Positions 3,701 to 59,850 of a stretch of DNA of 64,000 nucleotides are shown here, one piece after another. The stretch lies in the NCBI GenBank assembly GCA_030549175.1, contig JAUKUA010000004.1, positions 4,960,001-5,024,000 on the forward strand, read 5' to 3'. A program made the translations under genes and the position numbers. The stretch is from Lasiosphaeris hirsuta. Lineage: Eukaryota > Ascomycota > Sordariomycetes > Sordariales > Lasiosphaeriaceae. Every line of letters begins with the position of its first letter. Positions within the stretch are counted from its first letter, which is position 1. The notes beneath the pieces are model-generated. The model had not been told where the DNA came from. It did no database searches and saw nothing but the letters and a program-made list of their open reading frames with translations.

Positions 3701-6630
3701 CCGGTTTTGGAGACGGTGTTTAGTTCCTTTGATATCCCGCTTTGTAGTTTTGTTTTTGTTTTGACGTCACGAGGTTTTCTCCGCGTAATTATTTGATAGA
3801 CATTTAGAAGGTTGATTTATGAAACATTACCCCCAACCTGGGATATTTGTGAGAATGTGATCCTGAAAGGGAGGTGATACATGAAGACGCCTTTCTAGTA
3901 TTTCGAAAGGCCTTTCCTCCATTAGAAGAGGCACTATTACCATTTTGAAGGAACCTACAGTACTTCAAAAGGCTATTTTAACATGTGAAAACCCCTTATG
4001 CTTTCTAAGAACTACTACAGTTTCGGGAGTAACTTATAAATTATCTACCCAGCAATCCGTAACCGGAATATCCGCCCTATGAGTCAACCTATTTGCTCTC
4101 GCGGAGAACATCCGCAAGCACTTCGGCAGCCTTCACAATATACGGTCCAACGTCATCGCCTAGTCGGCAATCGCACATCGCCTACGAAAGCCTTTCGCTG
4201 GTCATTTAGATGGATTGCCCGAGGGCCACGGTCGTATCGGGGGTAGAAACCTGTCATCATGCCTAGCCTTCATCTCGTCGGTATTTTGTGTACGCGTCTG
4301 ACGTGTACGCGTGTTTGTATGCGTTCTTTTGATTTTGACGCTCTTCATTATGTGCATATCAGGGTATGGCGGGTAAGAGCCCGGAGGGCGGGAGACTGAA
4401 CGGATCTGCCAGGGTCGGAAGTCGAAGGGGACCGCTAAAGTCGAATATAAGCGGCCTCGATGACTGCGGCTGCTGCTGTAGTGTGCCAAGGAGGAATAAG
4501 GGAAAGTGGTGGGAAGAAAAGTAGGTGTCGAGCGAAAATCCCATGCCGACTAAAGCTCCAGTGGGCTAGTGTACCGGAGTTAGAACCGGGCGATCATCTA
4601 GACTAAATGTTAGGTAGTTTGCTGTTTGGGTATAGCCTATTGCCGAGACTGGAGTTGAAGTTAGGGAATAGGTGTAGACTTACTATACTGAAGATAAACC
4701 TATCATTGTCTAACGAGGTATCGGCCAAAGTGTGTATATAAGTGTATTGGAGTAGGAGACGGTTTAAGAAATGAATGGTAGAAGAGGAGTAATCGACGGT
4801 CGACGGTGAAGTTTGGCGTATATGTGGGTACATACTAGTACCTATGACACATCCATATCTCTTTATTCACCCCCCATAACATTTTCTGACCAAGTCAGGA
4901 TTAATCATAGAGCCTGAGTAGGAGGTGAGGCAAAGCGAGTACCTCCCTGAGCTGAGGCGAGTTCGGCTATAGTTACTGTGATTTAAAATCGGGCCGCTCC
5001 TGAACCCAGTTTAGGGACACCAGTCCATTAAGTACTACCGTTTTCTTTTACCCATATAAGCAACCACCGTTAACAGACCTCCTGAATTGCCGCTCGTTAT
5101 TAGAGCGTAACTCTAAAGGCCCAAGTCAAATTTCAATTTTCTAAACTACAGATATAACGTTTTGTAACCCTGTGAGGCGTCGGGCTGACAAGGATAGGGG
5201 GTCGTCGCCGTACAAGATGATAGAACAGTAATTAAGCGGTTATAAGAAGATCAATTGAAGTCTGGACCCCCTAACTCGGTTGAGTGGTCTAGTACTCTTT
5301 TCTATCTGGACTAGGGTATCCGTAAACGGTAGAGTGATTTGAGGTCTCTTTGTTGCCTGTGTCCCGAACTATCCCACTCCTTACACAGGGCTTCCGCGGA
5401 GGTGTTCTTTATCCTATGCTCTGCATCGCCCAACGGTGCTCCTGGTACCTACACTCGCAGTGTGTGTTACAAATAGGGTAGTTAGAAGTTTATTAATTAA
5501 ATTATGTAACTATGAACTAAATCGGTTAAAACAGCTCCGTTATACTTAATTAACCTCAGTGAATTCAGACTTAGCCTTGGTAAGACGTTGACGTTAAGTT
5601 TTCTACGAACAAAAAAAGATATGTACCTATGGCGGCAGAATTACTCCTTTTTATTCGACTAGTCTGCTGGCAGAAAATTTACCCAGCTCTCAATAAGGAG
5701 CCCAGTTCCCACCCTTCACCCCAATTTTGGTCTTTCTGTCGCTGGTACAAGTCGCTAGCGGAATCGGCTTCCGCTATTTTTCGTCAACGTCAATTCTTCG
5801 CACGGGCATTTTATGCATCTAACCGACCACACCGTGCGACCCTGCACGCGTCTCAGTATGGCACGCACATGTAATAATGCATGTACCGACTGCCTGGCAG
5901 TAATGCCGGACGCGGCCGATCCGCGATCCAGCGAAGTTGCCTAGCTTCGGTTTGTCAAGCTGTCCTCATACGGTGGAGTCCTCGGCTCTCGGTGAGCGGG
6001 AGCATCGAATCGGTGGGGACGAGGGGTTCAGGGTGGGGCGCATTGGCATTGTCGGCGCCACCTCCATTTGCAGGCCAGCGAGAATGGAGGTATCTGCGCA
6101 GGCTTCGTTCGCTCGGCTTGCCAATGTTGACGAATCGTACGGATCGTACTTTGATCAGATACTTAGATCAGTTGATCTCCCGTTCCCTTCGTTTCGCGAA
6201 GCTTTCAACACCGGGCGCAACCGATGCGTCGAAGTCGAAGCCGTCCATTGTTTCGTTCCCAGCGCCGCGCCTGGTTTCTAGGACTGCCGCGCTGGATGGG
6301 ACAGAACGCGTCTAAGACGTTTCGTCAATTTACCGCTCATCGTACCGCTGGCCGACAGAAAAAGCGCGCTGCAGCAGAGAAGCATGTGGCGTCTGAACGA
6401 TTGGCCATGGCTGTGTTGTTGGGCAGCAATGCTTCAGCCCGAAAGATGGTTGGCAGCATCCAGCTCGCCTCTCCCCCACCTTCCTTTCCCCTTTGCGACT
6501 TCGCATTCACTCGCGCGATCGTCATCTTGCTTCAGACATAGCGAGGTTAAGCAGCTAACCTGTCAGGCACCAGCGTGATTACGCATCGGCCATCTGTCGA
6601 CTTCTTAGCTGATTCGACAACGCAATAGAA
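3701..6630. other. AT-rich, gene-poor region
   Basis: From the 3' end of the NAD(P)-binding gene to about 5.9 kb the sequence becomes clearly AT-rich, with many stops in all frames. It contains one copy of a dispersed repeat (listed separately). From about 5.9 to 6.6 kb the composition returns to GC-rich, and this part is probably the NLR promoter. Frames such as 5881-6315 have no recognisable domain and overlap other frames. The composition shift fits old RIP-mutated repeats. Confidence 0.5.
5160..5474. repeat. Dispersed repeat, copy 1 (partner at 19.67 kb)
   Basis: About 310 bases align in direct orientation with 19669-19975. Shared blocks include ACAAGGATAGGGGGT, CTCTTTTCTATCTGG, TTTGAGGTCTCTTTGTTGCC and TGTTCTTTATCCT. 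Many differences are G-to-A or C-to-T in this copy (for example the partner's GGTGGAGCAAGGTG region reads AT-richer here), as expected of stronger RIP. The partner keeps an open frame of about 100 codons and this copy does not. Its identity is unknown: transposon or duplicated gene fragment. Confidence 0.7.
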
Positions 6631-9600
6631 ATGATGGATGGATTCCTATCACGGCCGAAGAAGCGCAAGACTCCGCCCAATCCTCAAGCACATCCCAACA
6701 CAGACACCAGTCCGTCCGAGAACCCCCCGATTCCCTCCTTCCCAGACGGAGTGAAGGTTCTGCACGACTGCCCCGACGCCACCGTCGACATCTGCTTTGT
6801 CCATGGTCTGACAGGGGACCGGGAGAGCACATGGACCGCCGACGGGCAGTCCGTACCCTGGCCAAAGACTCTTCTCCCGCCGAAGCTCGACAAAGCTCGC
6901 ATACTTACATACGGCTACGACGCATACATAGTGCGAAAAGGAGTTGCGTCGTCGAATCGGCTGATCGATCATGCTACGAACCTCCTGAACGACTTGACGA
7001 CAGACAGAGTCTGCTGCAATGCGCCATCTCGCCCCATCATATTCGTCGTCCACAGCCTGGGCGGCCTTATCTGCAAACAGGCCGTTCTCCTCTCACGGAA
7101 CAACCCAGATACCCATCTTCGGGGCATATTCAATTGCACCACCGGCATCGTATTTATGGGTACTCCCCACAGGGGAGCTTGGATGGCTGACTGGGCTGAG
7201 ATTCCGGCTTCGGCTCTTGGTCTGGTAAAATCAGTCAACAAGTCGCTGCTAGAGATCTTACAGACAAATAACCAGGCCCTCGAGCTCATTCAAGTCAACT
7301 TCTGGTCAATGATACGGGAACGGCAAAAAGCCAATCAACCTCCAGATGTCACATGTTTCTTTGAGGAACTACCTGTACCTAGGGTTGGGAAAGTCGTGTC
7401 CAAGGAATCCGCTACTCTTGAGGGCTACAATTCCATTACCATCCACGCCAATCACAGGGACATGGTCAAGTTTGCCTCTGTTGAGGAGAACGGGTTCAAA
7501 AGGTTGCTGGGAGAGCTAGTCCGATGGGTATCGCAACTCGGTAAGGAGAATTAGCCAATTGCTTCTGAGAACACACTGGGCTAAATCTGCTTTGGAGGCC
7601 AGGTACTATCTCAGACCGCGCAAGATTGCCTCAAGTCACTAGCCTTTCCGCAAATACAGAACCGCTCCCATGAAATCCGCAGTGCCTTTAAGGGGACATG
7701 CGAGTGGCTGCTTCAACATAAAATGTTCGGTAGCTGGACCGCTTGCGACCGAGGCCTGCTCTGGATCAAGGGAAAGCCCGGCTCTGGGAAGTCGACTCTG
7801 CTAAAATATGCTCTCGATAAACACGAAACTAGGGACGGCGCCCTTGTTCTCTCGTTCTTCTTTCACGGTCGCGGCAATGAGCTCCAAAGGACGCCTCTTG
7901 GCCTCTGGCGGTCTCTCCTTCATCAGGTCCTTCGGCAAGCCCCCGGCGCACTGCAAGATCTCGTCGACGAGTTTGAAACAAAGCGCAAACAGATCGGCAA
8001 GCCGGGTGAAGACTGGCACTGGCATGAGGAGGAATTGTTGTCCTTCTTCAATTCGTCTCTTCCGAAGGTCCTAAAAACTCGTCCGGTCTGGTTATTTATC
8101 GACGCCTTAGACGAATGTGGCAACGAGAAAGCAGTCAGGCTAGTTGAGATTTTCAAGTCTTTGCTAAAGAGTCTCCCATCCCAGTCCGTACGCCTCGGAC
8201 AGTGTCGCATCTGCTTCTCTTGTCGCCACTACCCGATCCTAGATCTGGGTGAAAGCATGTTCGAAATATGCGCCGAGGCTGAAAACCAAGGGGACATTTC
8301 GACGTTTGTGGATGACCAACTCGCCGGGTTCCGTAAGCGTACGTCATCTACGATTCCGGCCTTGATTACGGAACGTGCCTCTGGCGTTTTTATGTGGGCG
8401 CGTCTCGTTGTAAAGCAAGTTCTGGACCTGGAGCGTGAAGGAGTCGCATTAAAGAAGATCGAAGGGATAATCCATTTCATCCCTGCAGATCTCGATAAAC
8501 TCTACCGACAACTCATTCGGAGTATGAAACCGGCCTCCCAAAAACTGATCCAATGGATTTGCTTTGCCACGCGGCCTTTATCAATTGACGAGTTGCGATG
8601 GGCTATGGTTATCGAGGCCGATTGCCCACACCAGTCGTTACAGGCATGCGAGAGCGCGGATGATTACGTACCCGACAGTGTCCAGATGAAGAGGCAAGTT
8701 CAGACGCTCAGCTGCGGTCTTGCCGAAGTCAGCCAAGCGCAGGCTGTCCAGTTCATCCACCAGTCCGTCAAGGACTTCTTCGTCGAGACAGGCCTCCCAG
8801 CTTTGGGCGGCGACGCAACGTCGGCCGAGACGGCAATCAGAGCACACTTCCAATTGTCCAAGATTTGCATACGCTACTTGGCAATGGAAGAGATCGGTCG
8901 GTCAACAACCTACAACGACTTTACATTTTTGCGTTACGTCACGACCTCGTGGTTATCGCATGCACAGCAGTGTGATGCTAGAAGCATCCGTCAAGAGGAT
9001 CTCCTGGCGTTGTTTGCTTGGCCATCAAACAATCTCGTAGAGTTATGGATGCGCATTTACCGGGCAATAGATAGATATTCAGGTGACTGTCCATCAGAAG
9101 GAACTAACCTGCTACACGTCATATCGAGATATGGAGTCTTTGGGCTAGTGAGGGCCATTCTGCAAAGTACATACCAAATTACTACTGCTGTTGACGCGAA
9201 AGATAAGGACGGCCGGACGCCACTGTGGCGGGCTGCCGAGAACGGCCACGAGGCCGTCGTACGATTGCTGCTCGATACCGGCGCTGCTGTTGACGCGAAA
9301 GATAAGGACGGCCGGACGCCACTGTGGCGGGCTGCCGAGAACGGCCACGAGGCCGTCGTACGATTGCTACTCGATACCGGCGCTGCTGTTGACGCGAAAG
9401 GTAAGTACGGCCGGACGCCACTGTGGCGGGCTGCCGAGAACGGCCACGAGGCCGTCGTACGATTGCTGCTCGATACCGGCGCTGCTGTTGACGCGAAAGA
9501 TAAGTACGGCCGGATGCCACTGTGGCGGGCTGCCGGGAACGGCCACGAGGCCGTCGTACGATTGCTACTCGATACCGGCGCTGCTGTTGACACGAAGAAT

Positions 9601-9852
9601 GAGTACGGCCGGACGCCACTGTGGGGGGCTGCCGGGAACGGCCACGAGGCCGTCGTACGATTGCTGCTCGATACCGGCGCTGCTGTTGACGCGAAAGATA
9701 AGTACGGCCAGATGCCACTGTGGCGGGCTGCCGGGAACGGCCACGAGGCCGTCGTACGATTACTACAATGCCATGCCTACACCAGTGGTACCCCTGCCGT
9801 CTCTACTTACCTCACGATACCACTCTATGATTCGACAGAGCCGGTAACATGA
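6631..9852 (+). CDS. NLR: SesB-like alpha/beta hydrolase - NACHT - ankyrin repeats, about 1054 aa
   Basis: Exons 6631-7540 and 7598-9852 join through a 57-bp intron (GTAAGG donor, CTAAAT branch, GGAG acceptor, phase 1). The splice restores the segment [14 protein letters not shown] and TCEWLL that precedes NACHT domains in fungal NLRs. Domains in order: residues about 40-300, a SesB-like serine hydrolase (oxyanion strand ICFVHGLTG, nucleophile elbow [15 protein letters not shown]); about 345-510, NACHT with Walker [10 protein letters not shown] (about 362-370) and Walker [12 protein letters not shown]; a helical region with the conserved SIDELRWAM; about 835-1030, six 33-residue ankyrin repeats. 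The family acts in cytosolic non-self recognition and heterokaryon incompatibility, with repeats sensing and the N-terminal domain as effector. After repeat six the frame runs into an unrelated tail and stops; ankyrin debris follows. This suggests the array once continued. Confidence 0.9.
9190..9783 (+). repeat. Six tandem 99-bp ankyrin-coding repeats
   Basis: Units start at 9190, 9289, 9388, 9487, 9586 and 9685, each exactly 99 bp (33 codons, [23 protein letters not shown] ankyrin unit). Units are almost identical at the nucleotide level. Differences cluster in the codons for the segment before TPL (DKD, GKY, DKY, NEY) and in single sites (R/Q, T/M, E/G, R/G). The last unit diverges after RLL. 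Such near-identity implies recent amplification or unequal crossing-over. Unit three contains a perfect GTAAGT that could act as a cryptic splice donor. Confidence 0.95.
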
Positions 9853-10039: not shown

Positions 10040-10275
10040 GGCGACTATCATCATTAGGCTAAAAATTACCTTAGTAAGCTTAGGCATTGACCTCAAGGAT
10101 GGTACCGACACGAAAAATCATCGTGGGTCGCCAAGGAAGGACACGAGGTTGTCGTCCTCAGCTACTCAGCACGGCAAGGTCGATGTCAATGCGAGAGATA
10201 GATATGACCGGACGCCGCTATAGTAATGCTGCCGACAATGGGCATGAAGCTGTCCTTAAGCTGTTGAAGTAAGCG
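10040..10275 (+). pseudogene. Degenerate ankyrin repeats downstream of the NLR
   Basis: Short ankyrin-like pieces appear in changing frames: a WVAKEGHEVVV-like piece near 10130, VDVNARDRYDRTPL ending at a TAG near 10220, then NAADNGHEAVLKLLK to about 10270 in another frame. Each matches the NLR repeat consensus (TPL, A.NGHEAV..LL) but is more diverged than the six intact units. These are most simply the decayed 3' end of the NLR's ankyrin array, separated by the premature end at 9852. Confidence 0.65.
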
Positions 10276-13120: not shown

Positions 13121-14246
13121 TTACCCCTTAGCGTCACTAAAGTTTAGATAATAATCTTTCAAAGGTCTGTTCCAAAATAAGAACTGGGGAGCTTCTTCCT
13201 TTCAAGGATCCATTGTAACGTACCTATCTCTTTTATCTAGAGAACTATCTATAATATATAAGAATATTAAGATACCTAAGAATTCTTCCTAGCTACCTTT
13301 TTATAATAGGGTCTGAACAGGCCTGTAGGGCCCTGTGGAGGTGTGTGACGAAGTTCCTATGGATATTAGCAGTGTCACACTACTGGGCTCACCTAAGGTC
13401 AACAAGGTGTATCACCTCCTTGACCTGGGCCCACAGTGATTGCTACAACGGTTGCTACATCGTGGCTTACCTAAGGGACACACTCCACAACATCGTGTGA
13501 TCAGGGACCCCCTGGCCCATATATTGGTCGATGGATCCCCCCAAGTATGGCCACGGGCCAAGCCGGAACCCAGACACCACTAACAAAGCCGGACCGACCC
13601 ACCTCGTGGACCTGGCCTATGCTAGGTAACGTTACCACACAACCTCAGTATCGTAGTCGGAACTACAGTAGCTAGCCAAAAGACCCACATGATAATTCAG
13701 TAGGTCTTTCGAGTCATAAACCTCCTAGTTATCACAGTCATCTTTTTGGAAGGCTTAAACCCTGACGTTCTCCGGAGTCTAGCTTCAGTGGTAATAAGTG
13801 ATTACGACCGGGCCTATCGGGCCTTCATAAGTCACGAAGGGAATCGTTACTGTAACAAGATACTAACTATGTAACTGGCAATTTAGTGGCCGACGTAAGT
13901 ACCAAGGACGGGAAGGAACCTCCATAGTAATGGTTACCATACCTCTTAAGTTATAGGAGTAAGTACCAATACCGGCCGTGGACCAACGGGAGATAGTTAG
14001 TAACGTTTAGCTTGTATCCCTCATTATAAGGTACGAGAGACGGATGGCTAAAGGAGATTCGGGACCGACGGGTGAATAAGACGGATCTTTAAGCATCTCG
14101 GTATTCTTATATCTTATATATAGCCTTCTAGATAAAAGAGACGGGTATACTGCGACGGACCCGCGAGAGGAAGAAGCCCCCTAGTCCTTTTTAGAAATAG
14201 AACTTAGAAAGATTATCAGCTAAACTTTAGTAAAGTTGAGGGGTAA
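13121..14246. mobile_element. TIR element with about 170-bp inverted arms and TA flanks
   Basis: The left arm, starting TTACCCCTTAGCG at 13121, is mirrored by the right arm ending at 14246 (inverted: TTACCCCTCAACTTTACTA). Matching blocks continue inward: CTAAAGTTTAG, GCTTCTTCCT, CTCTTTTATCTAGA and ATATAAGAAT, giving arms of roughly 170-180 bp. Dinucleotide TA lies on both outer sides (13119-13120 and 14247-14248), fitting a TA target-site duplication as in Tc1/mariner-like elements. The 780-bp interior has no long open frame, so the element is non-autonomous or decayed. Diverged pieces of the same family lie at 18.3-18.6 kb. The superfamily is inferred only from the TA and the arms. Confidence 0.75.
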
Positions 14247-15240: not shown

Positions 15241-17577
15241 ATGAGAGACGGCGATGAACGGACCGATGTTCTAGAGTCAGCACCAGATTGCGATATTTGT
15301 CAGAAACTCCTCAAAGCCGCTTCTATCTTCTTACAACGTCAGTCGTCACCACCTAAAACCGTGGATGACTAGAGCGATACTGATTCATTGGAACTGGGCG
15401 AGTGGCATGATCTGCTTGCTGCCGAAAATCCCACGTCAAACTGCGAGGCTCATAGGGAGTTTCTCCTTTCTGTGCGCCATCATCACCCGGAAACCCTCCC
15501 ACGGCTGCTGAGCATCATAAAACACGAGGGCAAGATAATCATCTCTGATAAATTCACTGCAAGGGATGGAAAGCTCTGGACGCGGTGGCTCTGCGAAGTA
15601 TTGGTCATAAATGACTCGGCACAGCAGAGCCAAGCTACTAGCAGAAGGCTGGATCGCAAATACATAGATCCGGCTCTAGTGCAATACTGGAGGTCGTACT
15701 GCGAAAACCACCACGGCCTGGAGTGCTCTCAACCTCGATTTCGTCTTTCTAAGCCGCTGGCGTGGCTTATCGACTGTAAAAAGAAGTGCTTGGTGGCAGA
15801 ATCCGACGGTGGTATATGCCAGCACTCATACGTTGCTTTGAGTTACGTATGGGGGCAAACGCCTAGGCTGAAAACGGTACGGGCGAACGTGTCTGCGCAT
15901 CAGGAGGAGGGAGTTTTCGACTCTGACAGGATTGGGGGCGCGATACCGCAGACGATCCGGGACGCAAGCCAGTTGGTGCCTCTCTTGAACGAGCGATACC
16001 TCTGGGTGGATTCGCTCTGCATTGTGCAAGACGACCCGGATTAGGTGCAGTGCCACATCGATCAGATGGCCATCATATTCGAAAACGCCGTCCTTACTAT
16101 TGTAGCGGGTGACGGAACCGACGCAGACCATGGGATTCGTGGAATTCGTAACATCTCTCAGCCACGGGTGCTCAATACGGTGCTCAGACTGACGGACGAC
16201 ATCAGTTTGGTTGCCCGCCAGGGAGGCCACCTCAGCAATACCGTGTGGTCAACGCGCGGTTGGACCATGCAGGAGTCCATCTTCTCCCGACGGAGGATTG
16301 AATTTTTTGACAACTCGATCCGATGGAGCTGCCAGCAGAATGGATATTTCGAAGACGTGGATTCACCCCTTGACCTGGACCGAAACTGGGCTATGGTAAT
16401 CAACACCCACAGCCACGCTATTGACCACATGTGTCTAGGCAACATTTCCACCAGCTTCCCCAATATACGCCGATATTTTGAGCTAGTCCAAGTGTACAAC
16501 TCTCGGGTACTCACATTCGACCATGACGCTCTTCGAGCCTTTAACGGCACCCTAAATGTGCTCCAGTACCAGGCGTTTTCGCGAGGCTTCCTGCATGGGC
16601 TTCCAGTCTCATTCCTTGATGCCGCACTTGTTTGGCGCCCGGCCGGTTCCTTTGGGAAATTACGGGCGCAATCTTTGAGAGATTCAGCACAGGGATCCCT
16701 GCCTAGTTGGACATGGGCTGGCTGGAAGGCCGGCATTAGGTACGACTTGACTAACTTCAACTATATTAAATCATTTTCTGAGGTGCGCCATATCTACGAC
16801 ACCCTATTCCAGGTCATTCCGACTCTCGATTGGCACATCCGAACCTCGACAAGCCCAGACACGGAGCCCGTCCGCATTCCTTTTCAAAACGAATGGTACC
16901 AGTGGAAGTGCTGATACATGGGTAAAAGGGACAATCTTCCAGCTGGCTGGAAATTCGAAGAAGAACATCCCGAGTCTGTTCAGGAGTATGCAGAAAACCT
17001 CAGATGATGGTCAGAAAATCCACCGTATTCGCTCATGTGTCAGGATCCGAAGAGTCCAATCCCCTTCGGCGAATGGGTAACACCATACTACTATTCACAC
17101 GAATCGGTTCCCGACGTCAAGTTCTGGCATCCCGTTCCGCTAGGCGAGATGGACCACACAACTAATGTCGCCGCCCCAGACACCCTCTCCCCTGGGCGGT
17201 ACTTATGTGCGCAGACGCAGCAAGCCCGTTTATGGATGGCGCGTCCTCATCAAAATAGTACCTTTAAACGACATATTTCCACAAGGGCATATGAACAGGT
17301 TCTCCCTATGTTTTCAACTGCACTCTGCATGAGCACGGTGCTAAGAGATGACCAAGGTCAAGAAGTAGGCGTGATTACCATTGACCAATGGAAAGACTGC
17401 GAACAGTTCATTCTGGGTGGAGGAGAAGACGGGAGTCGTGAGGACCCTTACGACGACATTGATGTCAACGCCGACTCCGTTGTTCCTTGCGATCTTGTCG
17501 CTATCTCTCGAGGCTTTGACTTCTATACGCCGCAGCTACCGGGCTACGAGATGTACACTTTCTATAACGTGCTTTAA
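15241..17577 (+). pseudogene. HET-domain gene 1 with four in-frame stops and no frameshift
   Basis: One reading frame spans the whole gene, interrupted by TAG (15370), TAG (16042), TGA (16912) and TGA (17005). It begins with the usual C-x-x-C segment (DCDICQKLL), then the HET domain: YVALSYVWG (about 15829), IPQTIRDAS, RYLWVDSLCIVQDDP (ending at the second stop), then IFENAVLTIVAGDG, RGWTMQE and a C-terminal region with PSWTWAGW. HET proteins trigger cell death when unlike hyphae fuse. Lack of indels with several stops points to point-mutation decay: TAG can come from CAG or TGG by C-to-T or G-to-A at CpA, as in RIP. An upstream in-frame ATG exists at 15070, so the N-terminus is uncertain. 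Confidence 0.88.
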
Positions 17578-43876: not shown

Positions 43877-45948
43877 ATGCAGGACTGGAATGGGTCCCGT
43901 TCGGACGGTGCTAGTCTCGGATCCCTCAGCGGTGACGAAAGCGCGGACCTAGATTCCGACAGCCCAAACGAACTTTCGCAGCCACCGGCATTTGGTCTGG
44001 ATGAGGATATGGGGGCGGGCGAGAACGGCCTCGGCGTGGAGGATGCCACCATCGCCAAGGAGAGTGCGGGCGAGAAGCTTGGCTTTTACACCATCAAATC
44101 GCTCGACTGCGAAGCAAAACTAGATATCAATATTGAATTCTTGAGATGGCGCGGTAGTCCCGTTTTCAACCTCCTCAGGGTTACCGCTGAAGTGACCACG
44201 CCCAGCCAGGTGGAGGATGGCTGCCTTCTTGGGGACATGGTCGACGACAACGCCGTCATCATGACGCTTGAAGTCATGTGCGCCGGTAGGGTAAAAGCCG
44301 TTCCTTTCCGCATCCGATTGTTAACACGGCGAGTATGCAAGACATGATCGATGGCAGCTCGGTGTTCCCTCGGCAATGGGATATCGTATCTGCCGCCAAC
44401 TCTGACGAGTGGGTGCCACGCGCAACGCCGTGGCTTCGAGGCTGCGACGAACACATTGTTTGCGCGACCTCGGACACTTTCTAGCCCACACGGCTCATCA
44501 ACGTGCGTAACCCCGATCATCACCAGCTCACTGTTCTCTCGGAGGACGACGACCAGAGCAGCGTCCGGCCTTATGCAGCCCTCAGCTACGTTTGGGGATC
44601 GAAGCAGGAGTACGTCCTCACCACGGCCGCCCTTGCAGAAATGCGCACGGGGCTAGACTTATCGAGGCTGCCGAGAACGATATCAGACGCCATTCGGGCA
44701 GCACGCCAGCTGGGCTTTGACTACCTATGGGTCGACGCCCTGTGCATTATCCAAGACTCGCCCGAGGATAAGGCCAGGGAATTACCGCTCATGTCGGATA
44801 CGTACAGGGAAAGCTCTCTTTGCATCGTGGTAGCTAGCGCCGCGGCAGCGAGTGAGGGATTCCTCAAGGCTCCTGAAAGTCCTCGGTTCCTCGTCGATCC
44901 TTTCGAGGTTAGGGTTGACTCTGCTGACGGCTGCTGCTCACCGTCGCTCACGTTTGGCTATCGGGCGCCGTACAAGGCTTCGGCGGATCCCATCAGCTCT
45001 CGGGCTTGGACCTTGCAGGAGCGCGTTCTCTCGCAGCGCCTTCTGATCTTCTCACGAAAAGGTGTGATGTGGATGTGCAGAGGCCGCTTCATCAACCCCG
45101 GCGCCGCACCGGACGCAGGGCCACCCTACCAAACGTCTCTCGGCCTACACGCCGACGGCGACGAAAACAGCAGCGACCAAGATACTGAAGCAAGCATCCG
45201 CGAAACGTGGATGGCTATCCGTGCGGACTACACCGAGATGGGTCTAACGTACTGTGCTGACAAACTGCCCGCCATATCTGCCCTTGCAGCCGAGGTGGGC
45301 AGGCAGACAGGATGGACATACCTCGCAGGGATGTGGAAGGACAACTTGTTTTCGGAGCTGCATTGGCGATCCACTAAGCGGAGCCCTTCGGGCGAGAGGC
45401 TTGTCCTTAAGCCGCAGAAAGCAAAAGGGGCTGGCTACATTGCGCCGAGCTGGAGCTGGGCGAGCGTTGGCATTGGCAGCGTCGAGGAGAGCGAGGACGA
45501 GCACCGCGAAATCTTTGATTTTACAATTCTAACATGCCATGTTGATACCGATCCGGCCTTCCCATTTGGACCCGTCAAGGGTGGGTATCTCCAAGTTTCT
45601 GGAAGGGCGGTGGAGCTGGCATGGCGAGCAGAGGACAGGCCCGAATGGGATGGTTTTGACATTTCTCTGCTCGACCCGCAGGAGAAAGCCAGCAGCACTG
45701 GTACACCACTTTTGGTGGGAAACGGGACGCTGGATTCCCTGGATGAACATCTAGACCCGGGCGTGAAACTTGTCTGCCTCGGGATGAGCAAGCTCAAGCT
45801 TGGCCGGCAACGGATTATGCCGGTTGAGGGATTACTCCTTATCCCAACCGGGTCTAGTCGAGGCACATTCCGCCGTGTCGGCTTCTTTCGCATGACAGCA
45901 CCTTCGATCTTTAGCGGAGTGTCGATTAGCATCTTGAGAATTGAGTAA
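43877..45948 (+). CDS. HET-domain gene 5, best preserved, one in-frame TAG
   Basis: Exon 1 from the ATG at 43877 to 44285, a 56-bp intron (GTAGGG donor, TGTTAAC branch, CAAG acceptor), then exon 2 from 44342. N-terminal acidic region, FYTIKSLDCEAKL, and WLRGCDEHIVCAT. A TAG at 44482-44484 then sits directly before PTRLINV, a conserved HET-family lead-in. After it 488 codons are intact: YAALSYVWGSKQEYVL, LPRTISDAIRAARQLGF, YLWVDALCIIQDSPEDKA, RAWTLQERVLSQRLLIF, YIAPSWSWASV, and a C-terminal region to 45948. There is no in-frame ATG between the TAG and the HET core. Either the TAG kills it, or an unrecognised intron removes it (44413-44484 would be phase 0 but with a weak GTGCCA donor). Of the seven HET loci, only this one might still be functional. 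Confidence 0.82.
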
Positions 45949-56265: not shown

Positions 56266-59200
56266 ATGCCTACCTCAAGCCCCGAAGAAGAACGCGACTG
56301 GGATCGCCACCAGCGCGAAATATGGAGGCTCTACCTGTTTGAGGGCAAGCCATTAAAGCAGGTGATGCAAGATATGGCGCAGCGTCATGGATTCTCGCCC
56401 AGGTAAGGAGGTCAAACTTGCTGTCCCAACAGAAGCCAACGATATTAAATGAATGCCATGTCGACGCTAGCAAGCAACAATGGATTGCCAAACTCAAGCA
56501 ATGGGGCTGCTACAAAAGCCTCCCCAAGGAAGGATGGCGCTATGTGGTACACCAGGCCCGAAAGCGGAAGTTGTCCAACAGCGATGAAAGTGGCCCATGT
56601 GTGGTTCTTTCGGGTGTGAGGTTGTCCCGGGAACAAGTGCGCAATGGCATGAGGAACCACTGCCCAGGACCGACTCTGAAGTTGCCGCGATATCGATGTG
56701 AGCAACTTTTGTTTAGGTTCAGATGGGAAGCCTTCCCCCTGTGAGTTCGAAGACTGACCCGTGCGTGCAGCCCCAAGCCCTCAACCTCCCCGCGGTCTTC
56801 CCCTGACTGTATACACACCTCCTCCCCTGGAAGGTACATCGTGGCCCCAAAACCTCCCATGGCTACAGTTCCACAATCGGGAGTTCCGATGTGAGTTGCT
56901 AGCATGGTTTCTTTAACATCAACACTCCCTCCTAGCCCAACTTGATCTTGACATAATAACCCTAGCAATCATGTCGACCCTGGAAAGCGCTCTTTCCAGA
57001 ATCTCTCTCTTATCGCCATCACCAACTAGCGTACCGATATCACTATCCCGCTCCCTCGGCCCACACCTCGCCTCTCTCACAGCAGGACGAAAGGCCGACG
57101 GAATCCACAGCCGTCTGAGCCTCTTCATGCCCGAGAATGAATCCAAAGAGCATCTTATCCGCGCCGAGTCTATCTGCCAGCACGGCACGCAATGGGCCGC
57201 CCGGACGTGGCTGGAGCTCGCCCTGTTCTGCTACTCCAACCACCTGGACTCGCCGTCACTCGATGCAGAAGAAGGCGGCAGGCGGTACGGTACCGCATGG
57301 GCAACGAGAGATAAGCAGGCGCTTCAATTCCTAGACTTCCTCTGGACAGCCGGGACGGTACTGCAGGAGCTGGTGCAGTCGGAGGCACCCACAGCACAGG
57401 CCCTAGTGGAGAGGTTCTTCGCCAGCGCAGTTCGACTTGGGCGGATTGAGACGCTGAGGAAGTTGGTTGATGATGCTGGCTTGCGTCTGGCGGGGTCGGG
57501 GCTCCTGGTGGGCGTCAAGGATCGGGATGACCTTGGTGAGGGTACCCTTGCGCCTATTGACTATGCCCTGCGAGTGGGCGATGCGGAAATGGTGGACTTC
57601 CTGTTGGAAAACGGGGCAAAGTTTACGACTGGTCCGGCGCGGTCGTCGCTTGACGTGGCTATGGCTGGGTACGCAGTGGGTACGCTGAAGCTGGAGGTTG
57701 CCGACGATTCCAAAAGCCCGCGGTCCCTGGCAGACGAGGTGTGGGTTGACCAGGGCGATCGGTATTCGGAAGAGGAGCTGATCCGCATGTTGAGTCGCAT
57801 GCCGAGGGTCCGGCAGAGGCCCAAGAATTTGGAGCGGACAAGTTGGCCGGTAGCCGCCAGGCGAATCCTGAAGCGCCTTGGCAGGATGGACACAGATTTC
57901 GAAACTCGACTTCAGAACCCTCTACCCCTGTTGATTTTCGCTATCCGGTACGGAGACCGAGAAATGATGGCGGCAGTCACGTCGAGGGTCCCTGATCTTG
58001 ATGCCACATGGACTCCCGACGGCGATGCATTGACGACTACGGCCATGGCGGAAGCTGCGTGGGTGGGAGACCTTGAGTTGTGCAGGATTTTGATGGCTCG
58101 GGGTGCCACACCCAACCCGGCCGCCGCCTCGTCTCTATCCGCTCTCCAGATCGCAGCCCACCTTGGGAATATGCCCTTGGCTGGCTTCCTCGTCGAGAAG
58201 GGCGCCGACGTGAACTACTCGTTCAGCGGCTCCGTCGAAATCCGACCCGAACCTACAGCCCTCGGTCTCGCTATTGCAGAAGGACACGCCCCAATGGTGG
58301 AGTTTCTACTAGCGAAGGGCGCCATAGCGACAGCAGAGAATCTGGTCAGCTTGGAGCCGCTCCTCCCAGAGCTGCCCGACTGCGAGGCGATGGTGCGGCG
58401 GCTTGTTTCCTCCCAAGGGGAAGACTTTACCAGCACAGCCTTGCTCGTTGCCGTGCGTCAGGGTGATCTCAACCTGGCGAAGCTCCTCGTCCGGGCTGGT
58501 GCCGACTGGTCGCATGTTAGCGAGACGGGGGAGACACCCTTGGCGCTGGCCCTGTCGGTCGGATATGCCTCCGTCGTCCACCATATCGTGGAGACTGGGC
58601 TGACACGATATGATGCCGCGGCCCTGCTAGCTGCGACAGCGGCGACCGATTCGGCGGTGCCACGGAGCATATTCAACATCATCCTAGACAGCAGATGCGG
58701 AGTCGGACGGTACCACTACCACCAGAGTGACAAGGCGTGGACAGCCTTCCTGGAAGGCCTAGCCCTAGCCACCGCCGTGTGTCTCGGGGACGAGCATCGG
58801 GTCGCCCGGTTACTTGACGCCGGAATCTCCCCCGTCGAGAAATACCCCCTCGCCAAGTCGAGGAATGGATACCTCTTCCGTTTCAACCTCCGTGACGACG
58901 GCACCAATGAGGTACTCGGCGTCGGTCCTGAATCTCGCCATGACCACATCCTGACCATCCCTGGCGCGACCATTCTCGGGACTGCCTGCGGGGCCAAGCA
59001 ATCGGCCACCGTCCCCATCCTCCTCCGTCACGGATACCAACCGACCCACGTCGACCTTGCCATCGCCGCCCACTTCATGGACCAGAAGACAGTCGACCTC
59101 TTCCTCCCCTTGGTACCCAACCACTCGGGCATCCTCTCCCCGCTCATTCGCCGCGGCTGGACATCCCACGTCGACAAGATTCTCGACAACGGTGGAGACC

Positions 59201-59850
59201 CCAACACTCTCGAAACTTACATTCCCGCCATCGGCCCCTATCTCTCATTCATCACCACACCCCTTAAATCAGCCATCCTCTCCGACAACATCAAGCTCGT
59301 GTCCCGCCTCCTCCACCTCGGCGCACACCGTGACATATGCCCCGGGCCGTCTCCTTCCTCTCCCCTCGCCGCCGCAGCAGCCAAAGGGCATATCGCCATC
59401 GTCAAGCTCCTCATCTCTCACGGCGCTGGCATCAATGCCTCCTGCGGTGAATCCCCGCTGGAGGCCGCGGCGCAGAGTGGGAGGATTGATGTATTGAAGT
59501 ATTTGCTTTCCGAGGGGGCCGACACGGAGGGCGTGCACCGCCGGAGGTATCTCCGGGCGATCAAGCTTGCTGAGGAGGAGGGCCATCAACTTGTTGTGAG
59601 GATGCTGAAGGAGCATCGGGAGTGGAGTGAGGAGGATGGCCGGATCTTCGAAGCGCTGGATGTTTATGACGAGGACTATGGAGATGGCTGGGGAGGGGAA
59701 AAGGGGGAGGAAACTGGCCGAGAGCGTGAGGACGCGTGGCAGGCTGGGCTCGATGGTGACGGGGGGGAGGAAGGCTGGCAGAGTTTTGTTGACTGGGATG
59801 ATGATAAATGGGGGTCTCTGGAGCATGATTTCAGCTTTCAGGCAGGGTGA
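56266..59850 (+). CDS. Clr5-domain ankyrin-repeat protein, four exons, about 1132 aa
   Basis: Exons 56266-56402, 56471-56697, 56771-56890 and 56936-59850; donors GTAAGG, GTGAGC and GTGAGT. All four joins keep one frame. Residues about 8-62 form a Clr5 domain (RDWDRHQREIWRLYLFEGKP, MAQRHGFSPR, QWIAKLKQWGCYK), a DNA/chromatin-associated helical domain named from a fission yeast silencing factor. A proline-rich linker follows. From about residue 350 to 1060 there are many diverged ankyrin units (GDAEMVDFLLENGA, ALQIAAHLGNMPLAGFLVEKG, ALAIAAHF-like, PLAAAAAKGHIAIVKLLISHG, PLEAAAQSGRIDVLKYLLSEG), ending in a very acidic tail. It is intact and single-copy here. Fungi have many Clr5-ankyrin genes; functions are mostly unknown, perhaps nuclear recognition or regulation. 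Confidence 0.88.

Follow-up and report, generated by a model that had tools for sequence, protein, structure and literature searches.

In a 64,000-nucleotide window of Lasiosphaeris hirsuta DNA (the whole stretch analysed, C9:4960001-5024000 of a 44.4-Mb genome in 14 contigs), a gene at window positions 6631-9852 on the forward strand probably encodes an intracellular NOD-like receptor (NLR) of this Sordariales fungus with a built-in effector, combining an ankyrin sensor, a NACHT switch and a SesB-like hydrolase output. The predicted model has two exons, with the ATG at 6631 and the stop codon at 9852, and its spliced product is 1054 residues long. Its features, in window positions, are as follows.

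6631-7540, +: exon 1, modelled as a SesB-like serine alpha/beta hydrolase (effector) domain; 303 codons plus 1 base
7054-7056, +: Ser142, presumed nucleophile in HSLGG, directly after strand 136-141; serine in 44 of 45 alignment rows
7363-7365, +: Glu245, presumed catalytic acid at the end of strand 239-245, assigned from topology; glutamate in 45 of 45 rows
7453-7455, +: His275, presumed catalytic histidine after strand 267-271, assigned from topology; histidine in 44 of 45 rows
7541-7597, +: 57-bp intron, GTAAGG...GGCTAAATCT...GGAG, placed by the junction peptide and the donor and branch letters of a paralogue
7598-9852, +: exon 2, NACHT-type NTPase, winged-helix region, ankyrin domain and stop codon, from Pfam matches
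7771-7797, +: P-loop GKPGSGKST, with GKST invariant in 29 of 29 rows; in a low-confidence part of the model
8092-8118, +: Walker B, DALDE, invariant in 29 of 29 rows
9109-9165, +: divergent helix pair ahead of the array (model helices 504-511 and 514-522), a putative ankyrin-like cap
9185-9761, +: near-identical 99-bp ankyrin units, 5.8 copies (Tandem Repeats Finder and unit comparison)
9766-9849, +: short C-terminal tail QCHAYTSGT..., a pattern common to the related proteins P0008 and P0046

The spliced model would have the architecture of a fungal NLR (STAND), with an N-terminal effector, a NACHT or NB-ARC domain and C-terminal repeats in one protein. Pfam matches above cut-off in exon 2 were NPHP3_N (9.3e-34) and Ank_2 (3.1e-74), and the Walker A and B motifs expected of this class were both intact; the alignments used here (45 rows for the hydrolase, 29 for the NACHT part) were hand-picked from 236 proteins. 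The exon-1 domain was modelled as a lipase fold, a SesB-like serine hydrolase with putative lipase activity. The hydrolase fold, the conserved catalytic residues and the presence of named SesB homologues are those of sesB-like effectors: the "SesB protein" of Nannizzia gypsea (P0209) is 65% identical to residues 1-315 of P0046, and DUF676 passes its cut-off (20.8 versus 20.3) in a 68%-identical hydrolase elsewhere in the genome (locus L058). The exon-2 structure model had a mean predicted local distance difference test score (pLDDT) of 82.4 and a predicted template modelling score of 0.62, with pLDDT values of 92-98 for ankyrin residues 531-720. It contained one divergent helix pair (504-522) followed by six uniform pairs, and its ankyrin part superposed on the designed ankyrin protein 6moi (TMt 0.95, 1.0 Å). 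Pfam, homologues, the hydrolase structure model and the peptide at the splice junction support the proposal of the initial annotation that a SesB-like hydrolase is spliced to a NACHT domain and ankyrin repeats.

Several observations weigh against this assignment. The hydrolase Pfam models score just under their curated cut-offs in the window, and NACHT (3.9e-5; 24 bits versus 26.7) and GPIID_WHD (1.1e-4; 23 bits versus 27) fall below theirs in exon 2. The part of the exon-2 model that includes the P-loop is poor (residues 21-80, pLDDT 56-69), the splice acceptor TTGGAG is weak, and a PDB sequence search with the hydrolase returned no similar solved structure, giving three weak matches (E 0.6-0.9). 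Taken over ankyrin-register positions 1-25, the ratio of non-synonymous to synonymous rates (dN/dS) in the array is about 1 (1.17). The lipase activity and death role of SesB are literature proposals, and a plasma-membrane modification has been proposed for sesB-like domains (Dyrka et al. 2014, PMC4986451; this and the other papers are cited from excerpts). Human SERAC1, which the same paper describes as related to sesB, was absent among the matches listed.

Tandem Repeats Finder gave a period of 99, 5.8 copies, 95% matches and no indels for 9185-9761, ruling out a chance repeat. The near-identical repeats described in the initial annotation were thus recovered, the sixth only in part: five whole units begin at 9193, 9292, 9391, 9490 and 9589, and the sixth (9688) departs from the pattern after 26 codons. 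As also described there, the differences are concentrated in a few codons per unit. Across units 1-6, the exit of unit 6 left aside, 12 nucleotide positions vary, 9 of them non-synonymous (unit codons 2, 4, 5, 6, 8, 9, 13 and 16) and 3 synonymous (codons 3, 25 and 26), and in units 1-5 every amino-acid difference lies within codons 1-16 of 33. All eight amino-acid-changing codons fall in the first 16 of 33 with a chance probability of 9e-4, for a half that was picked once the data were known.

Numbered by the ankyrin register, positions 1, 2, 3, 5, 6, 10 and 13 vary within the range 1-23, and unit codon 2 lies just before the register. Because the model helices cover positions 7-13 and 17-25, these changes would fall within the hairpin and the inner helix, which is the first of the two. 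We take the binding positions to be 2, 3, 5, 13 and 14, those randomised in designed ankyrin repeat proteins (DARPins). Four of these five vary in the window array (p 0.017), which, with the modelled location in hairpin and inner helix, agrees with the earlier suggestion that variation falls where ankyrin domains bind their partners. The five positions have a dN of 0.154 and a dS of 0, and the other positions a dN/dS of 0.75.

Homogenisation of the repeats, whether recent or in concert, is supported. The best 100-amino-acid span is 97% identical and identity is at least 85% over 202 amino acids, so the array is one of high internal conservation (HIC), defined as more than 85% identity over at least 100 amino acids of repeats (Dyrka 2014, PMC4986451). 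Self-identity is 96.2% at a shift of 198 bp against 95.1% at 99 bp, and CTA recurs in units 2, 4 and 6, suggesting that the history of the array included a two-unit duplication step; ATG is common to units 4 and 6, and units 1 and 2 differ by a single base. When the six window units were compared with those of eight relatives, the nearest unit lay in the window protein for all six. For the nine proteins together it lay in the same protein in 38 of 46 cases (1 of 3 in P0017), ties being counted as same, a pattern that would fit homogenisation within genes, if not perfectly. Sharing with, or conversion from, another locus was rejected: in a DNA search of the genome that scores its best candidates only, the 8 matches outside the array are 64-70% identical. 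Truncation of the array by a recent insertion was not favoured, given the similar tail of P0008 and P0046. The repeat-induced point mutation (RIP) index of the array is slightly raised (0.43; GC 0.646), and CpG transitions make up 3 of the 9 coding changes by reading, too few to conclude on RIP as their source. Possible RIP-hit DNA flanks the gene at 5001-5500 and 13501-14000, where GC is lower and the RIP-type dinucleotide index is close to 1, and a decayed ankyrin-like stretch lies downstream of the stop codon at 10162-10266 (local score 55 versus at most 44 in 200 shuffles).

Similar arrays are found elsewhere in the genome. Lag identity at 90-108 bp was scanned with a threshold of 0.85 over 300-bp spans. 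The scan, carried out on 69 loci chosen by similarity and therefore giving a lower bound, detected uniform arrays at at least seven other places, with lag identities of 89-100% (0.98 for the window).

C9:5631 kb: uniform array, lag identity 0.91
C12:748 kb: uniform array, lag identity 0.975
C1:7708 kb: uniform array, lag identity 1.0
C11:3257 kb: uniform array, lag identity 0.975
C7:3500 kb: uniform array, lag identity 0.915
C8:6152 kb: uniform array, lag identity 0.98
C9:5537 kb: uniform array, lag identity 0.89

The window array is thus not special within its genome. The array at C1:7707-7709 kb (L014) has at least 12 units in a higher-order succession of unit types. The binding-position test was applied to five of the eight uniform arrays, the window included: the ankyrin-unit pattern retained 6 chains from 5 genes, missing the arrays in L010, L055 and L063, and two chains of L017, which may overlap, were merged. 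In the five genes the five binding positions varied in 20 of 25 cases, a count that 200,000 random draws never reached (p 4e-5 when combined by Fisher's method, 0.0037 to 0.089 for individual genes; the arrays are paralogous and not fully independent). Synonymous differences at these positions were zero in five of the six chains. Because overall dN/dS of the chains spans 0.92 to 2.57, positive selection at the binding positions is suggested by these comparisons but not proven.

It is somewhat unlikely that the uniformity reflects very recent duplication and neutral drift alone, without binding-driven diversification. Such a history would suit the dN/dS of 1.17, the 9 non-synonymous to 3 synonymous positions, near the neutral 3:1, and the sharing of CTA and ATG between alternate units with the higher 198-bp identity, which resembles a two-unit duplication. 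It accounts less well for the sparing of helix 2 from amino-acid changes (9e-4) and for the variation of binding positions across five array genes, although a scaffold under purifying selection would account for some of it and the arrays are paralogues of one another. That the array length is a product of assembly and the true allele different is quite improbable: short reads do not recover such repeats reliably (PMC12222747), but the 5.9-Mb contig in a 14-contig genome suggests that long reads were used, and most units are mutually distinct, units 1 and 2 by that single base.

At the joint between effector and switch, the initial annotation had joined two frames by a splice across 7541-7597; the splice stands, but the open frames (6613-7554 and 7585-9852) are not different frames, since they share one reading frame, with TAG 7552 and TAA 7582 between them. 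Both stop codons fall within the 57-bp (3n) intron, which lies between model residues 303 and 304. Among 10 frame-preserving GT-AG choices in the searched range, 7541-7597 is the sole one that keeps both WVSQ and QVLSQ like the relatives (by reading frames). Apart from one L/V difference, the junction peptide is that of P0046 (Cercophora sp. LCS_1), and P0121 (Dichotomopilus funicola), P0103, P0122, P0131 and P0154 are also continuous across the joint, with a longer linker in P0122; the relatives' proteins are gene predictions. At the same joint, a broken paralogue (L059) reads GGTAAGG...GGCTAAATCT, with splice-donor and branch-site letters kept. Since the junction peptide matches relatives and these letters are conserved, the predicted intron is well supported. 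The paralogue itself is a frame-broken SesB-NACHT gene at C9:954160-956137, about 46% identical to the model, with intron signals kept at the joint. It is highly improbable that the locus holds two genes, with an independent hydrolase that stops at TAG 7552 and a NACHT-ankyrin gene that begins downstream: stop codons do separate the open frames, a stand-alone SesB gene is present in the same genome and the database fragment of the locus (P0004) begins within exon 2, but the junction agrees with single-protein P0046, five further relatives span it, the paralogue keeps the donor and branch letters, and the genome's stand-alone SesB bears a sigma tail that the window hydrolase lacks.

The relatives examined were the best 120 of 1168 for exon 2 (own fragment P0004 included) and the best 120 of 628 for the hydrolase, and they point to the Sordariales and to a fungal origin. 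P0004 aside, the exon-2 matches listed are at most 78% identical. A 100-amino-acid repeat span of at least 85% identity occurs in 40 of the best 120 exon-2 relatives and in 6 of the best 120 hydrolase relatives. Among the matches listed, hydrolase identity is highest for P0121 (87%) and P0046 (83%), and NACHT-part identity for P0028 of Lasiosphaeria ovina (80.5%), bar a 198-residue piece of P0046 (81%). The hydrolase of P0028 is merely 26% identical; conversely, P0123 has a hydrolase identity of 72% with a NACHT part of 33%, and Aspergillus P0149, named a WD40 protein, has 72% with a distant NACHT part of 24%. Because the two identities disagree in these three proteins, modules are exchanged among relatives, and the intron lies at the joint of this exchange. 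L. hispida proteins were absent from the best 120 hydrolase matches, and P0062 of that species has a NACHT part of 76% identity with no hydrolase match among those listed; one neighbour gene is 90% identical to L. hispida, a hint of kinship with Lasiosphaeria against which these two hydrolase observations count.

When 235 proteins (P0004 left out) were sorted by extent of homology, with thresholds of at least 55% for the hydrolase and 45% for the NACHT part, 50 matched through the joint, 103 on the NACHT side only and 77 on the hydrolase side only. More than 40 residues precede the match in 39 of the 103 NACHT-only proteins, and 33 of these 39 start at model residues 301-314; in most of the remaining 64, the match begins close to the start of the protein itself. 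Hydrolase-only matches end at 299-306 in 45 of 77 cases, and most others at 307-320. Such breaks near the intron are only suggestive of exon shuffling, since homology would be expected to break near a domain joint in any case. It is unlikely that the conserved joint intron acts as an exon-shuffling hinge at which SesB, divergent SesB, sigma and PNP_UDP effector exons would be swapped onto the same NACHT-ankyrin exon, with the fused receptor and the SesB-sigma gene elsewhere in this genome as alternative wirings of one effector. Exon shuffling in brown algae is named in the title of a reference cited by PMC12258605 and in one sentence of PMC10197012. A sigma motif in the P0098 linker was discarded, PF17106 giving no match at E <= 1.

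No sigma motif (PF17106) was found before the NACHT domain at the window locus, which places the gene outside the sigma-amyloid NLRs; the genome has three matches, two over cut-off. One ends the closest hydrolase in the genome, the 68%-identical product of a 377-residue open reading frame (ORF) at C8:5316291-5317424 (L058 4792-5925, -; 55.4 bits). The second (45.2 bits) lies in a short divergent ORF about 0.6 kb from the SesB start (L069 2058-2285, +), and ankyrin-like pieces follow it; the pair spans C8:5316291-5318242. No NACHT-like stretch was matched beside the second motif in the part covered by L058, and no P-loop was seen by eye in the listed ORFs nearby. The locus thus looks like a SesB/sigma pair with an apparently damaged receptor. 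A weak sigma-like match under cut-off (25.9 bits; C9:1844475-1844567, L064/L068) lies upstream of the genome's NACHT-ankyrin frame closest to exon 2 of the window gene.

The initial annotation placed the gene in an established family, and the sesB-like/NACHT/ANK architecture has indeed been published (Dyrka et al. 2014, PMC4986451). In the excerpts of this paper and PMC12258605, NLRs of ascomycetes share the three modules and their order with the window gene; we found no architectural difference, only the sequence of the locus being new. Table 2 of the former lists a SESB-LIKE/NACHT/ANK protein of M. anisopliae, and in the latter sesB-like ranks with the commonest N-terminal domains of Sordariales and T-NACHT/ankyrin with the commonest combinations. 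The excerpts on Podospora anserina describe HIC NLRs, Pa_3_8560 and Pa_2_8180, with ankyrin units over 85% alike, as in the window, and the variable sites of Pa_3_8560 lie in hairpin or loop and inner helices. Their effector is PNP_UDP rather than SesB, and several alleles have been sequenced, in contrast to the one allele here. In the sesA/sesB/het-eN system of Nectria haematococca (PMC3321046), which the SesB-sigma gene of this genome resembles, the same hydrolase family accompanies a NACHT-ankyrin receptor, whereas the window hydrolase is fused to its receptor without a sigma motif; according to the same paper, the fused form exists beside the two-component form. HET-E and HET-D (NWD) and PLP-1 are likewise described as fused effector-NOD-repeat receptors, the first two with uniform repeats and PLP-1 with a phospholipase effector and patatin-dependent death. 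They use WD40 or TPR repeats and HET or patatin effectors instead of ankyrin and SesB, and differ further in that their incompatibility roles are demonstrated.

Elsewhere in the window, a 977-codon ankyrin protein frame without a NACHT match in the Pfam scan lies at 56917-59850 (+), and HET-domain (heterokaryon incompatibility) genes lie at 15373-16914, in two open frames, and at 44485-45948 (both +).

By analogy with its family, the receptor may work as follows. The ankyrin stack would be the sensor, binding a ligand on its concave face of hairpins and inner helices. Binding would free the NACHT switch for nucleotide exchange and oligomerisation, bringing together or activating the SesB-like hydrolases, whose attack on membrane lipids could trigger cell death or a defence response locally. 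Because the 99-bp units are near-identical, they would recombine easily, and units could be gained, lost and homogenised while a few binding codons change; repeat number may then vary within the species, as the initial annotation suggested. Gene structure, domains, the conserved catalytic and nucleotide-binding residues, the uniformity of the repeats and the location of their variation come from the analysis itself, and ligand binding, oligomerisation, lipid hydrolysis and cell death are all expected from the family. The role in allorecognition that the initial annotation proposed is possible for this gene but not the default, and an excerpted 2025 review states that allorecognition is not the role of most fungal NLRs. 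Since seven other uniform arrays occur in the genome and many fungal proteins share the architecture, the gene is a clean but ordinary further case of a fast-evolving class already known. With the window array and at least seven others, this genome is convenient for counting repeat-recombining NLR sensors outside Podospora, and two features could be measured in a population, namely the variation at binding positions in the different arrays and the intron between the modules.
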